Below, piece by piece: positions 2,469 through 24,555 of a stretch of DNA of 56,868 nucleotides (position 1 is its first letter; each line of letters opens with the position of its first letter). The position numbers and the translations under genes are program-made. The DNA is taken from positions 92,772 to 149,639 of the forward strand of contig LPNY01000209.1 in NCBI GenBank assembly GCA_001655195.1. Direction: 5' to 3'. Origin of the DNA: Arcobacter sp. EP1 (GTDB taxonomy: Bacteria > Campylobacterota > Campylobacteria > Campylobacterales > Arcobacteraceae). The notes beneath the pieces were generated by a model. That model saw only the letters and a list, made by a program, of their open reading frames with translations, searched no databases and was not told the origin of the DNA.

Positions 2469-3302
2469 TTATTTTATGATGTTAAGTAACGCCTCTACTA
2501 TAGTCTCTAATTCATTCGTGATTGGTTCAGATTTAAACTCTTTTGTAAAGAGTTTTCTTAATCGACCAGTCGTTGAAACATTCTTAGATGTCGTCACATT
2601 ACCTATATATTTTACCATAAATTTGGGATTTAGCCTATTTTTCTTTGCCAAATTCTCTAAAGAATTTGCTATGGTTTGGCCAATTTGGTAGTTTTTTGTA
2701 TGATTAAAGCACAACATAAGCGAACTTTTATCTTTGGATAACATTTTCATTAATGCATAAACATCAGTCAGTGCACTGGGGTCCGGAGTAGTTAATGCAA
2801 GAATATTATCAGAAATTGCAAGAAATTCTTTTACATAATCATTTAACCCCGCACCAGTATCCACAAGAATATAATCAAACTGATTTAATGTAATAACATC
2901 CTGAACAATTCGAGCAAAAACAAAAGAGTTGGAGTGTTTAGAATACTGGTAACCACTCTTACCTGCAATAAGAGTTATGTTTGAGTAAGGAGTGGGGGTT
3001 AAAACCCTATTTAAATTACTTCGTCCATCAATATAATCAAAAAGAGTATATTTAGGTTTAACATCAAAAAGAACTTGCATATTAGCCAATCCAATATCAG
3101 CATCAATAACCGCAACCTTTGCACCTCTAAGAGCTAATAAATAAGCAATATTAGCAGTAAAAGTTGATTTACCCACTCCCCCTTTACCTGAAGTAACGGT
3201 AATAAGTTTACTCTTAGAATCAACTTTTTGTGCTTGTTGCTGTTGATTACGTTTTGTAAGATTTATAAGCTTACTAGCTTGAGTAGAAATAGTATCTAAC
3301 AA
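2469..3302 (-). CDS. flhG: FlhG (FleN/YlxH) MinD-like ATPase, flagellar number regulator
   Basis: FlhG is a MinD/ParA-family ATPase that works with the GTPase FlhF to limit the number of flagella at the pole and, in Campylobacterota, links to division-site placement. The 277-residue protein has the deviant Walker A motif SGKGGVGKST at residues 38-47, the VIDADIGLANMQ Walker A' region near 65-76, and DTGAGLND near 148-155, equivalent to Walker B. The C-terminal tail ELETIVEALLNII is amphipathic and could be a MinD-like membrane-targeting helix. It starts 4 bases after the flhF stop, which supports translational coupling and joint function. Confidence 0.93.
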   Translation of the reverse strand: MLDTISTQASKLINLTKRNQQQQAQKVDSKSKLITVTSGKGGVGKSTFTANIAYLLALRGAKVAVIDADIGLANMQVLFDVKPKYTLFDYIDGRSNLNRVLTPTPYSNITLIAGKSGYQYSKHSNSFVFARIVQDVITLNQFDYILVDTGAGLNDYVKEFLAISDNILALTTPDPSALTDVYALMKMLSKDKSSLMLCFNHTKNYQIGQTIANSLENLAKKNRLNPKFMVKYIGNVTTSKNVSTTGRLRKLFTKEFKSEPITNELETIVEALLNIIK

Positions 3303-20403: not shown

Positions 20404-21483
20404 TTAGTTTCCAAACTCTGCAATTAATGCATCTAAATCTTCATCACCTACTAAATCATTTGTTGAATCACCTGCAATATGTTTTGCTACTACAATCTCT
20501 TCATGAGAATTATCATCTTCAAAAATATTGTTTAGGTAAATTGTTAATTTTCGGATTACGGACATTACTCGTTCAATTTTTTGTCGGTTAATATCATGAT
20601 ATTGCATCAATTCCATTGCACTAAACAGTTCATTGTTTTCGTTATTCAGTCTATCCCTAATAGCTTTAGGTTCATCTTTAAGACTATTAAGTAACTCTAA
20701 GTTTGTAGAAAAAACATCCACATTTGGGAACTTTGCATTTAATGTTTGAAGTACATTTTCTTGAGCTTCCATAAACTCTTCAAGTTTTTTAACACTTCCA
20801 TCAATTGCACTATTTTCATCAAGAATATAACTTAAAACATCAAATATTTTACTTGCTTTCTCTTCAGAATCATTAGCTACTGCACTTAATTGACTTACTA
20901 CTTTAGATTCTTGATCTGCAGGCAAGGGGAAAACACCTTTTTGTATTTGATCTTCAACATCATATCTTGCATTTGACTCAACTTCTGGTGCACTTGGAGC
21001 AACTTCAGCAGGCTTTTCCTCTTCTACTCCATCTATACTAGAGAGTAGTTCATCAATATCACTTGAATCAACATCTGATACTGATGATGATTCTTCTACA
21101 TTATCAATAGATGCAAGAAGTTCATCAATATCATCCGTTGAAACAGCTGAGTCAGAGCTGTCAGCCTGTTCAGTTGAACTCTCTACTTCTTTTTCTAAAT
21201 TATTAATTAAATCATCTATTGAACCTTCAGAAGCATCGGGTTCAGGGGCATTATCTTCTATACTTGCTAATAATTCATCTACTTCATCATTTGATACAGG
21301 CTCAGGAGAGGCAGGTTCTTCAACAGGTGCTGGTTCTTCAGAAATCACTTCTTCTACAGGTGCTGGTTCAGCAACTATTGTATCTTCAAGAGCATCTCCC
21401 TCAGATGCCACTTCTGAAGCACTATCCTCTGCAATATCTAACCCATTCATTAGTGATTCTATTTCTTCTTGACTCATACTCAT
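20404..21483 (-). CDS. cheZ: CheZ-like CheY-P phosphatase with an array of CheY-binding-type motifs
   Basis: The C-terminal half (about 190-359) is helical and contains QYHDINRQKIERVMSVI at 294-310. Asp297 and Gln301 align with the catalytic Asp143 and Gln147 of E. coli CheZ (DxxxQ), and the extreme C-terminus (DEDLDALIAEFGN) resembles the CheZ tail that tethers CheY-P. The first 155 residues are acidic and disordered but hold five copies of a short helix motif: EEIESLMNGL at 6-15, DEVDELLASI at 66-75, GSIDDLINNL at 87-96, DDIDELLASI at 117-126 and SDIDELLSSI at 141-150. SQEEIESLMNGL is nearly the FliM N-terminal CheY-binding peptide. cheY is the immediately upstream gene. The phosphatase role is well supported by these residues; multivalent CheY binding is inference. 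Confidence 0.8.
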   Translation of the reverse strand: MSMSQEEIESLMNGLDIAEDSASEVASEGDALEDTIVAEPAPVEEVISEEPAPVEEPASPEPVSNDEVDELLASIEDNAPEPDASEGSIDDLINNLEKEVESSTEQADSSDSAVSTDDIDELLASIDNVEESSSVSDVDSSDIDELLSSIDGVEEEKPAEVAPSAPEVESNARYDVEDQIQKGVFPLPADQESKVVSQLSAVANDSEEKASKIFDVLSYILDENSAIDGSVKKLEEFMEAQENVLQTLNAKFPNVDVFSTNLELLNSLKDEPKAIRDRLNNENNELFSAMELMQYHDINRQKIERVMSVIRKLTIYLNNIFEDDNSHEEIVVAKHIAGDSTNDLVGDEDLDALIAEFGN

Positions 21484-21510: not shown

Positions 21511-21888
21511 TTATGCTTTTAACACACCATCAAGTTTTTCTTTTAAGATTTCTGCATTAAATGGCTTAACAATGTAGTTGTTAACACCTGCTTTAAGTGC
21601 AGTAATTACTTCACCCTTACCACCTTCAGTAGTAATCATAATAATTGGGGTCTTCATATGATTTCCTTCAGATCTAACCTTTTTAACTAAATCTAAACCA
21701 TTCATATTTGGCATATTCCAATCTGTTAAGATAATATCGTATTGACTTTCACCTAATAATTTCCATGCTTTGATACCATCTTCTGCTTCATCAAAGTCTT
21801 CTTTAGAAAATCCTAGCTGCATAACAACATTTCCAATAATTCTTCTCATAGTTGAGCTATCATCAACAATTAATATTCTCATATTCAA
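21511..21888 (-). CDS. cheY: Chemotaxis response regulator CheY
   Basis: Single receiver domain, 125 residues, that carries the chemotaxis phosphate signal to the flagellar switch. Key residues are present: acidic pocket Asp9-Asp10, phosphorylation site Asp56 in ILTDWNMP, Thr86/Thr87 in MITTEGG, and Lys108 in IVKPF. The DWNMPNMNG stretch is typical of CheY rather than of output-domain regulators. It is the first gene of the leftward unit and is followed by the cheZ-like gene, so kinase output and its removal are co-expressed with rotor genes. Confidence 0.95.
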   Translation of the reverse strand: MNMRILIVDDSSTMRRIIGNVVMQLGFSKEDFDEAEDGIKAWKLLGESQYDIILTDWNMPNMNGLDLVKKVRSEGNHMKTPIIMITTEGGKGEVITALKAGVNNYIVKPFNAEILKEKLDGVLKA

Positions 21889-22914: not shown

Positions 22915-23340
22915 ATGGATTTAGAAGAATTAAAAAGAATTCGAGAAGAAAATTTCTCTTCCCACAAAAAAAAGAAAAGAGAATATTATCTTAAAAATAA
23001 ATTAGCAAAGCAGGCAAAAAAGAAGCCTGAACATAAAGAATATGATTATGAAAAAGAGTTAAGTGGGGATAACTTTGACCTTAAGATTAAAGAGATTATT
23101 AAACAGCAAAAAGAGCATGTAGATAGTCGAAAAGATAAAATTATTGCTAAAATCAATGATTATAAAAAGCAAAAACAAGAGTATTACCAACAAAATAGAA
23201 ATAAACGTTTAGAGTATGATAAAGATTATAGAGAGAAGAAAAAAGAAGAGCTAAGAGAGTACCGTAAGCGTTACTATGAAGAGAATAAAGAGAAAATACT
23301 TCAAAAACAGCGCGAAAAAAGAAATAACAATAAAGAGTAA
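22915..23340 (+). CDS. Small, very basic Lys/Glu/Tyr-rich helical protein, unknown
   Basis: I cannot name this 141-residue protein. It is built of long charged helices with many Lys, Arg, Glu and Tyr (KKKREYYLKNKLAKQAKKK, YRKRYYEENKEKILQKQREK) and almost no hydrophobic core, so it is either a single long charged helix or a nucleic-acid- or phospholipid-contacting protein. No signal peptide is seen. It starts 20 bases after flgG and ends 4 bases before the next gene, so it belongs to the flgG unit. The start ATG is preceded by only a weak AGG-type site. Confidence 0.6.
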   Translation: MDLEELKRIREENFSSHKKKKREYYLKNKLAKQAKKKPEHKEYDYEKELSGDNFDLKIKEIIKQQKEHVDSRKDKIIAKINDYKKQKQEYYQQNRNKRLEYDKDYREKKKEELREYRKRYYEENKEKILQKQREKRNNNKE

Positions 23341-23343
23341 ACA

Positions 23344-24555
23344 ATGGCAGAAAACCAAGACGACAAAAACCTAGATGAGTTACTTGAAGATATAGCATTA
23401 GAACCAGAGAGTGATAATTCCAATGACAATGCTAACGAACTGGATGATTTATTATCAGAGTTAGAAGAGAGCACAGAAAATAACAATTCTAATGATTCCC
23501 TAACAGAAGGTTTTGAAGAAGTTCCATTATCTGAAACAAATGATTTACAAACAGAAGATTCAAACAGTGAAAATGAATTTGTTAATGAAGCTGATGTGCA
23601 AGATGAAAAAGAGTACGCTATTCAGAAAAAACAGTCTAAGCTTCAAAAAATACTTATTGGAGTTGTAGTTGGTTTAGTTGTTGTCATTATCATTGGACTC
23701 ATTCTTTATTTAATTGGTTTCTTTGACCCAGAAGAGCCAAAACCACAAGAAAAAGAGGTAATGCCTAAAAAAGAAGTCGTTGTTGAAAAAAAACAAAAAC
23801 CTTCAATCAATGATAAAGATATTAATGTAGATCGTCTTAACAAAAAGCTCAATATGCTTACTAAATATGAAATTTTAGAGAGTGAACAAAAAGAGATTGA
23901 TAAAACAATTGAAAAAGAGAAGCTTTACCAAGAGGCAAAAGAGCAACTTGAGAGGGAAAGAGAAGCAAAAATTGAAAAAATTAAGGCAATTGAAGCTAAA
24001 AAATATGAAGAACAACTTCTTGCACAAAAACGTGAAGAAGCAATTATAAAAGAGGCCGAACAAAAAGTTGAAATGGAAATGCCAACAACTGAGCCTGAAG
24101 CTGAAGAAAAAGTTGAAGTGGTCAAAGAAGTAGCTCAACCTATAGTTGAAGAAAAAGAAGAGATTGTTGAAGAGCCTATCATTGAAGAAAAAGAAGAAGT
24201 CATAGCTGAGCCTGTAACTGAAGAGATAACAGAAGAGCCTAAAACTATTGAAATTACAACCAGCGATGAAATGGTAGAAGAAGAGCCTGTAACAGAAAAA
24301 ATGTTTGTTAAATTTATTGTCATAAATACTAATAAAACGGATATTTTCAAAGCTGACTTAGACAAAATTCTTACTTTAAATGATAAGGTTCAACTCTGTC
24401 GTAATGAAGAAAATCGAATTGAAATTTTTGTGGGACCATTTGAAGATGATCAACGAGATATGGTTCTAAGTAAATTTAAAGAAAATCTAATAGATGAAAA
24501 TCCGGAAGCACTTGATTTTACTCAAGAAGAATTTGATAAAAGGTGTAATTACTAA
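23344..24555 (+). CDS. Single-pass membrane protein with acidic cytoplasmic part and SPOR-like periplasmic end
   Basis: The 403-residue protein has an acidic N-terminal region (1-88), a membrane helix at about 103-127, a Glu/Lys-rich coiled-coil and PxEE-repeat region (about 150-300, with repeats of the type EEPVTEE), and a compact C-terminal domain (about 320-400) whose IEIFVGPFEDD resembles the SPOR-domain core that binds septal peptidoglycan. Two short motifs in the cytoplasmic part, KNLDELLEDI at 8-17 and NELDDLLSEL at 31-40, resemble the CheY-binding-type motifs of the nearby CheZ. Its function is unknown; membrane-to-wall linkage near the flagellar pole is a reasonable guess. Confidence 0.65.
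   Translation: MAENQDDKNLDELLEDIALEPESDNSNDNANELDDLLSELEESTENNNSNDSLTEGFEEVPLSETNDLQTEDSNSENEFVNEADVQDEKEYAIQKKQSKLQKILIGVVVGLVVVIIIGLILYLIGFFDPEEPKPQEKEVMPKKEVVVEKKQKPSINDKDINVDRLNKKLNMLTKYEILESEQKEIDKTIEKEKLYQEAKEQLEREREAKIEKIKAIEAKKYEEQLLAQKREEAIIKEAEQKVEMEMPTTEPEAEEKVEVVKEVAQPIVEEKEEIVEEPIIEEKEEVIAEPVTEEITEEPKTIEITTSDEMVEEEPVTEKMFVKFIVINTNKTDIFKADLDKILTLNDKVQLCRNEENRIEIFVGPFEDDQRDMVLSKFKENLIDENPEALDFTQEEFDKRCNY

Follow-up and report, generated by a model that had tools for sequence, protein, structure and literature searches.

FliM-like motifs on the acidic tail of a CheZ relative from Arcobacter sp. EP1 and their multiplication in Arcobacteraceae

What would a CheY-P phosphatase do with several copies of a peptide resembling the one that concentrates CheY-P at the flagellar motor? 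The question is raised by a gene of Arcobacter sp. EP1, located in a window of 56,868 nucleotides (the whole stretch of DNA analysed here) from contig LPNY01000209.1. The first-pass annotation had described its product as a CheZ-like phosphatase with five copies of a ten-residue pattern in a disordered acidic region and a sixth at the C-terminus, and had likened them to the CheY-binding peptides of FliM and CheZ. The open reading frame of 359 codons, its coordinates and its minus strand were confirmed, and all six segments were present (Table 1). The source genome belongs to the Arcobacteraceae, as judged from its named relatives, and the relatives that we searched include no further species of its genus.

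The phosphatase core

Using a profile search, we found that residues 186 to 358 match the NCBIfam family NF041271 (Phos_CheZ) with an E-value of 1.1e-35 and a score of 123 bits, which does not reach the curated cut-off of 350 bits. Across 397 Campylobacterota genomes, a match to this family was detected in 327 and exceeded the cut-off in only 27. Hence, the cut-off marks a Helicobacter-like subgroup, and we have filed the protein as a CheZ homologue outside that equivalog. The core shares 58-60% identity with that of some other Arcobacteraceae and 36-44% with those of Sulfurimonas, Helicobacter and Campylobacter. In the AlphaFold2 model it is formed by two long helices (residues 191-251 and 270-322) with pLDDT values mostly between 85 and 97. 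The active-site motif DINRQ and the DIHRQ of H. pylori-type CheZ are equally far from the C-terminal part, and D297 and Q301 of the former are invariant in the family alignment. Their equivalents in H. pylori CheZ, D189 and Q193, are required for dephosphorylation (PMC11237671). As judged from its sequence, the protein is a Campylobacterota-type CheZ relative, in line with the first-pass annotation, and the core homology together with D297/Q301 suggests that it has CheY-P phosphatase activity. Other searches were less specific: the protein gave no CheZ match but only chance-level matches against Pfam-A, phmmer against the PDB returned nothing beyond chance helical matches, and Foldseek and VIA-align of the CheZ model retrieved generic helical hairpins, with no CheZ chain among the matches listed.

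The same genome encodes a second, short CheZ-like protein of 120 aa on the minus strand (L002:1495-1857, contig C38), next to a chemoreceptor gene. It contains HQDLHRQ, with the DxxxQ arrangement, and a C-terminal SEDELEELI, has no long tail, and matches NF041271 over residues 55-119 (E 3e-11). Many Arcobacteraceae genomes yield weaker CheZ-like matches of about this size.

Table 1. Position of cheZ, its parts and the neighbouring cheY in the window.
Feature	Coordinates	Strand	Extent	Basis or remark
cheZ	20404..21483	-	359 aa, acidic tail and helical phosphatase core	ORF, NCBIfam NF041271
Acidic low-confidence tail with five motif copies	20929..21483	-	residues 1-185	composition, pLDDT
N-terminal FliM-like motif SQEEIESLMNGL	21439..21474	-	residues 4-15	near-invariant across Campylobacterota CheZ
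Internal copy 2 SNDEVDELLASI	21259..21294	-	residues 64-75	FliM-motif rank 2; predicted helix 65-77
Internal copy 3, weak SEGSIDDLINNL	21196..21231	-	residues 85-96	predicted helix 89-105
Internal copy 4 STDDIDELLASI	21106..21141	-	residues 115-126	FliM-motif rank 5; predicted helix 116-127
Internal copy 5, pre-core DSSDIDELLSSI, then DGV	21034..21069	-	residues 139-150	extended form recurs in Arcobacteraceae
CheZ core	20449..20928	-	residues 186-345	NF041271 match; two long predicted helices
DxxxQ active site (DINRQ)	20581..20595	-	D297 to Q301	invariant in family alignment
C-terminal motif GDEDLDALIAEF	20413..20448	-	residues 346-357	phylum-wide conservation; predicted helix 347-358
cheY (CheYz type)	21511..21882	-	directly upstream of cheZ	Response_reg E 4.7e-28

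Motif copies and their likeness to FliM

The tail ahead of the core is strongly acidic, with 31% D+E, 2% K+R and a net charge of -54. The six segments are EEIESLMNGL (residues 6-15), DEVDELLASI (66-75), GSIDDLINNL (87-96), DDIDELLASI (117-126), SDIDELLSSI (141-150) and, at the C-terminus, EDLDALIAEF (348-357). Although these segments are real, the pattern first printed for them has nine positions instead of ten and misses the N- and C-terminal copies. We therefore refer to the corrected ten-position form, [DE]xx[DE]x[LI][LM]xx[IL], as the strict motif. The earlier count of six copies holds in part: three segments (starting at 6, 66 and 117) match the strict motif fully, those at 87 and 141 are without the first acid, and the one at 348 differs at its end. 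Shuffling the same tail gave an expectation of 0.003 strict internal copies, compared with the 3 observed. Pooling 30 relatives, we counted 25 strict internal copies for an expectation of 0.28, a comparison to which, given the kinship of the sequences, no p-value is attached. Besides, 11 of the 14 L, M or F residues in residues 1-170 fall inside the copies, which span 35% of that stretch. Copies 2, 4 and 5 all spell (D)ELL(A/S)SI, but through differing synonymous codons, which rules out a recent DNA duplication as their origin and indicates that their likeness is maintained at the protein level.

Regarding the structure of the tail, AlphaFold2 predicted for CheZ alone (pLDDT 69, pTM 0.37) one helix per motif, at residues 5-12, 65-77, 89-105, 116-127, 141-148 and 347-358. 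We also modelled a CheY-CheZ read-through chain, in which the stops in the 27-base gap between the two genes were read as residues, and obtained the same helices (pLDDT 70.5, pTM 0.32). Between the motif helices of the tail, pLDDT was mostly below 60 in both models. Each motif is thus modelled as a short helix in a flexible, low-confidence tail, and this agrees, together with the composition, with the disordered acidic region first described. In the read-through chain, judged by confidence only, the motif helices were no more confident than in CheZ alone and the N-terminal one was less so, and this model therefore lends no support to docking of the motifs on CheY and speaks no more against it.

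In order to contextualize the motifs, we compared them with the FliM of the same genome, which starts with MAEFLSQDEIDALLDIAE and whose CheY-binding motif is SQDEIDALL. This motif was used as a probe on a genome sample made of 400 kb of stretches plus the window (428 ORFs, 133,168 aa, 129,744 9-mers). FliM itself ranked first, and the second, third and fifth ranks were taken by CheZ copy 2, the N-terminal copy and copy 4, respectively, which bears out the FliM-type likeness initially proposed. The C-terminal copy had 25 windows of equal or higher score, and copies 3 and 5 are weak when taken alone (76 such windows). Among the 428 ORFs, no protein other than CheZ contained more than one strict motif. 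The best copies (SQEEIESLM, SNDEVDELL and STDDIDELL) share with FliM the pattern SQ-[DE]-E-I-[DE]-x-L-[LM] of its N-terminal EIDAL motif, with a helix following a Ser N-cap. The difference lies in number and place, since FliM is a C-ring protein with a single copy, while in CheZ, a phosphatase, the tail holds as many as five and the C-terminus one more. By their sequence, the copies are FliM-like motifs of the putatively CheY-binding type.

Two terminal motifs in the phylum and an internal array in one family

We then looked at CheZ proteins from the rest of the phylum. In the 56 non-Arcobacteraceae CheZ (from Sulfurimonas, Sulfuricurvum, Helicobacter, Campylobacter and others), the tail measures 58-89 residues. 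By pattern, the N-terminal motif occurs in 55 of them (as MTQEELDALM), and the C-terminal one, DDIEALLAQF, likewise in 55; the phylum-wide form of the latter is D[DE][IL][DE]xL[IL]xxF. Their tails are equally acidic, and we found no strict internal copy in any of them. H. pylori-type CheZ (HP0170, NF041271) follows this scheme: its core is homologous and has the D-x3-Q site, and both of its ends bear a FliM-like motif, DDIEALIASFG at the C-terminus and, as read in close relatives, MTQEELDALMSGG at the N-terminus. It differs from the Arcobacter protein in its short tail devoid of strict internal copies. According to these sequences, Campylobacterota CheZ proteins, the H. pylori type included, generally have a FliM-like motif at each of their two ends. 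The array as a special feature is therefore limited to the internal copies, and the terminal ones, counted with it at first, are common property of the phylum.

The only N-terminal exception was C. jejuni 414 (L097, upstream of 1348). There, TQEELDALMNG is present in frame, preceded by the codon TAG and with no ATG directly in front, which may mean that the start was annotated within the motif or that the record is altered at this point.

The N-terminal region of H. pylori-type CheZ has been published as being of unknown function, and H. pylori CheZ lacking it retains phosphatase function (PMC11237671). Hence, the N-terminal motif is dispensable at least in that species, and motifs of this kind would tune the enzyme rather than enable it.

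In Arcobacteraceae, the CheZ tail is 112-263 residues long (median 175, n=21). These 21 proteins, a set overlapping that of the 30 relatives, contain 25 strict internal copies, for 0.26 expected from shuffling. Conservation in homologues had been put forward at the outset as a check on the array, and at least one loose internal copy was found in 43 of 44 non-redundant Arcobacteraceae CheZ, most having one to four and the maximum being six (counts that are not independent, owing to kinship). Both the number and the position of the copies differ among genera. Still, some places recur: a copy shortly past the N-terminus was present in 27 of the 44 tails (0.15 expected), and the extended pre-core form ([DE]x[IFL]DxLLxxIxG[IV]) in 19 (0.01 expected), so that a copy resembling number 5 ahead of the core is also seen in other genera of the family. 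One species (L011/L053) has no internal copy and a seemingly intact CheZ. When we compared 45 close pairs, motif residues were 72% identical versus 46% for the rest of the tail, with higher values for the motifs in 44 of them; the motifs are thus conserved although the tail around them evolves fast. In the CheZ sequences compared, the internal array is found only in Arcobacteraceae, usually with one to five copies.

Gene neighbourhood and possible roles of the array

The cheZ cluster is made of flagellar genes (fliG, fliF, flgB, rod genes, fliY and flhF/flhG-like), and cheY precedes cheZ. The listed cheY ORF starts at a TTG (21888), while its relatives start at the ATG at 21882 (MRILIVDD). This order, with cheY upstream of cheZ, was found in 22 of 22 Arcobacteraceae loci versus 0 of 58 other loci. 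Such a restriction agrees with a previous report, according to which Arcobacter lost the F3 chemosensory class and acquired F7, leaving a cheYz-cheZ remnant in the flagellar locus (PMC9321776). Arcobacter has five CheY proteins, and CheYz has been argued, from its FliM-binding residues, to be the one that binds FliM (PMC9321776). In our sequence, CheYz retains W, Y and K at the FliM-binding positions, and its closest solved structure is that of H. pylori CheY (65% identity). The motif array thus occurs in the family that coupled an old motor to sensory machinery of foreign origin, and its expansion may be connected with the replacement of F3 by F7.

Three further genes deserve mention. A second, stand-alone CheY of the same genome (L141:18035-18424, contig C96, minus strand) is 58% identical to CheYz, and its sequence, too, includes the residues W, T, K, Y and K that serve in FliM binding; CheYz may thus not be the sole CheY able to bind these motifs. 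In the same cluster as cheZ, and about 3 kb from it in several relatives, a gene for a membrane protein (23344-24555, plus strand) encodes an acidic N-terminus ahead of a single membrane span, with two DELL/DDLL motifs (NLDELLEDI and NELDDLLSEL). Its homologue in L188 shows eight [NS]xMDELM-like repeats in this region, whereas the pattern applied detects at most one in other homologues; the protein may be a second carrier of such motifs. Flanked by this gene and a rod gene lies another (22915-23340, plus strand) for a highly charged, lysine/glutamate-rich protein of 141 residues that matched no Pfam family.

We favour, with a probability of roughly 60%, the reading that the gene encodes the Arcobacteraceae version of Campylobacterota CheZ, in which the tail has been turned into a multivalent tether for CheY. 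This reading takes the motifs, their likeness to FliM, their conservation, their expansion in one lineage and the neighbouring cheY as observed, and adds to them CheY binding, simultaneous binding and effects on kinetics and motor switching, which we infer. The idea of the first-pass annotation, that this CheZ may hold several CheY-P at once or compete with FliM, is partly supported in this sense. Each subunit would offer six short helices, about twelve per dimer if the protein is dimeric like E. coli CheZ, and any one of them would catch the CheY-P made by the array kinase. Contact would be made through the surface of CheY on which the FliM N-terminus docks, alpha4-beta5-alpha5 (PMC11528121). 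Held on a flexible acidic leash, CheY-P would be passed to the D297/Q301 site or would rebind once released, so that the tail would raise local CheY-P at the phosphatase and lower the free CheY-P reaching FliM. The FliM N-terminus is a first, high-affinity site that concentrates CheY-P at the motor (PMC9126983), and the most likely role of the CheZ array is, by analogy, to do the same at the phosphatase.

One could argue that the tail copies bind CheY-P chiefly to withhold it from FliM, as a sink that sets a threshold. Since the motif is the same as that of FliM, competition is to be expected if binding occurs, and many weak sites per phosphatase fit a buffer; for the isolated FliM peptide and activated CheY, PMC9126983 cites a Kd near 27 uM. 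However, the copies sit on the phosphatase itself, with captured CheY-P near the active site, a placement that pure storage does not need, and their number varies freely; we regard this role as unlikely. It is rather improbable that the helices serve as a localisation signal, binding another partner (ChePep/CheO-like or a polar array protein) in place of the polar placement of CheZ known from Helicobacter. The function and the polar localisation of H. pylori CheZ do depend on ChePep (PMC11237671, PMC7750401), and Arcobacter, from which the ancestral F3 array and numerous accessory genes of the flagellum have disappeared (PMC9321776), perhaps needed a new tether, but the copies resemble FliM, a CheY target, rather than any known localisation motif.

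The main rival to CheY as a partner of the motifs is FlhG, the MinD-like regulator of flagellar number, binding of which would tie CheZ to flagellar assembly or to the pole. In polar flagellates, FlhG interacts with FliM via the FliM N-terminus (PMC12826062), and a MinD/FlhG-like gene is located in the same cluster (positions 2469-3302 of the window). Yet the neighbour of cheZ in all the Arcobacteraceae loci is cheY, the C-terminal copy corresponds to the element through which CheZ is known to bind CheY in other bacteria, and flhG is expected in flagellated members throughout the phylum, which leaves an array found only in Arcobacteraceae unexplained; we give this alternative a low probability. 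Finally, drift of a low-complexity acidic linker, with copies arising as by-products of a D/E/S/L-rich composition and having no binding function, would fit a strongly acidic tail of variable length and a copy number that changes between genera, but it is largely refuted and very improbable, as composition-preserving shuffles account for roughly 1% of the copies seen, nearly all close pairs show motif residues better conserved than the residues around them, and the equally acidic tails outside the family hold no strict internal copy.

Returning to the multivalent tether, parts of it have precedents. E. coli CheZ resembles this CheZ in its D-x3-Q catalysis and in a C-terminal CheY-binding peptide of the same hydrophobic pattern, of which it has one per subunit. 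To our knowledge, E. coli CheZ has neither a FliM-like N-terminus nor an array. FliY/FliN of the B. subtilis type is a C-ring component with a CheC-type fold and one motif, and is not known to be homologous to CheZ. It nevertheless offers a parallel, namely a CheY-binding peptide (EIDAL) fused to a CheY-P phosphatase (PMC6946799, PMC12826062). Crystal structures of the CheZ peptide with CheY are cited in PMC11528121. CheZ and the FliM-type motif are thus each known already, and what would be new is their combination with multiplied copies. Our literature search for CheZ with a CheY-binding or FliM peptide returned no such array among the titles and abstracts listed. Likewise, the papers searched contained no report of an N-terminal FliM-like motif shared by Campylobacterota CheZ or of its multiplication in Arcobacteraceae, although the N-terminal motif may have been mentioned earlier in the work on H. 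pylori CheZ and ChePep.

In a broader and more tentative version, which we consider possible, an array of substrate-docking motifs grew on a CheY-P phosphatase in a lineage that exchanged F3 for F7 and kept its old cheY-cheZ pair. Such an array would set CheY-P capacity, cooperativity or the motor threshold, and could be a scaffold or condensate-like CheY-P hub competing with the motor.

For the phylum, these results provide the N-terminal region of epsilon-type CheZ with a concrete candidate function, as it carries a second FliM-like, putatively CheY-binding motif that is nearly phylum-wide. For Arcobacteraceae, the array would offer a natural experiment relating the output of a two-component system to how many docking sites a phosphatase carries, and it may help to explain how the F7 chemosensory array, once acquired, became coupled with an old F3 motor and its CheY-CheZ pair.
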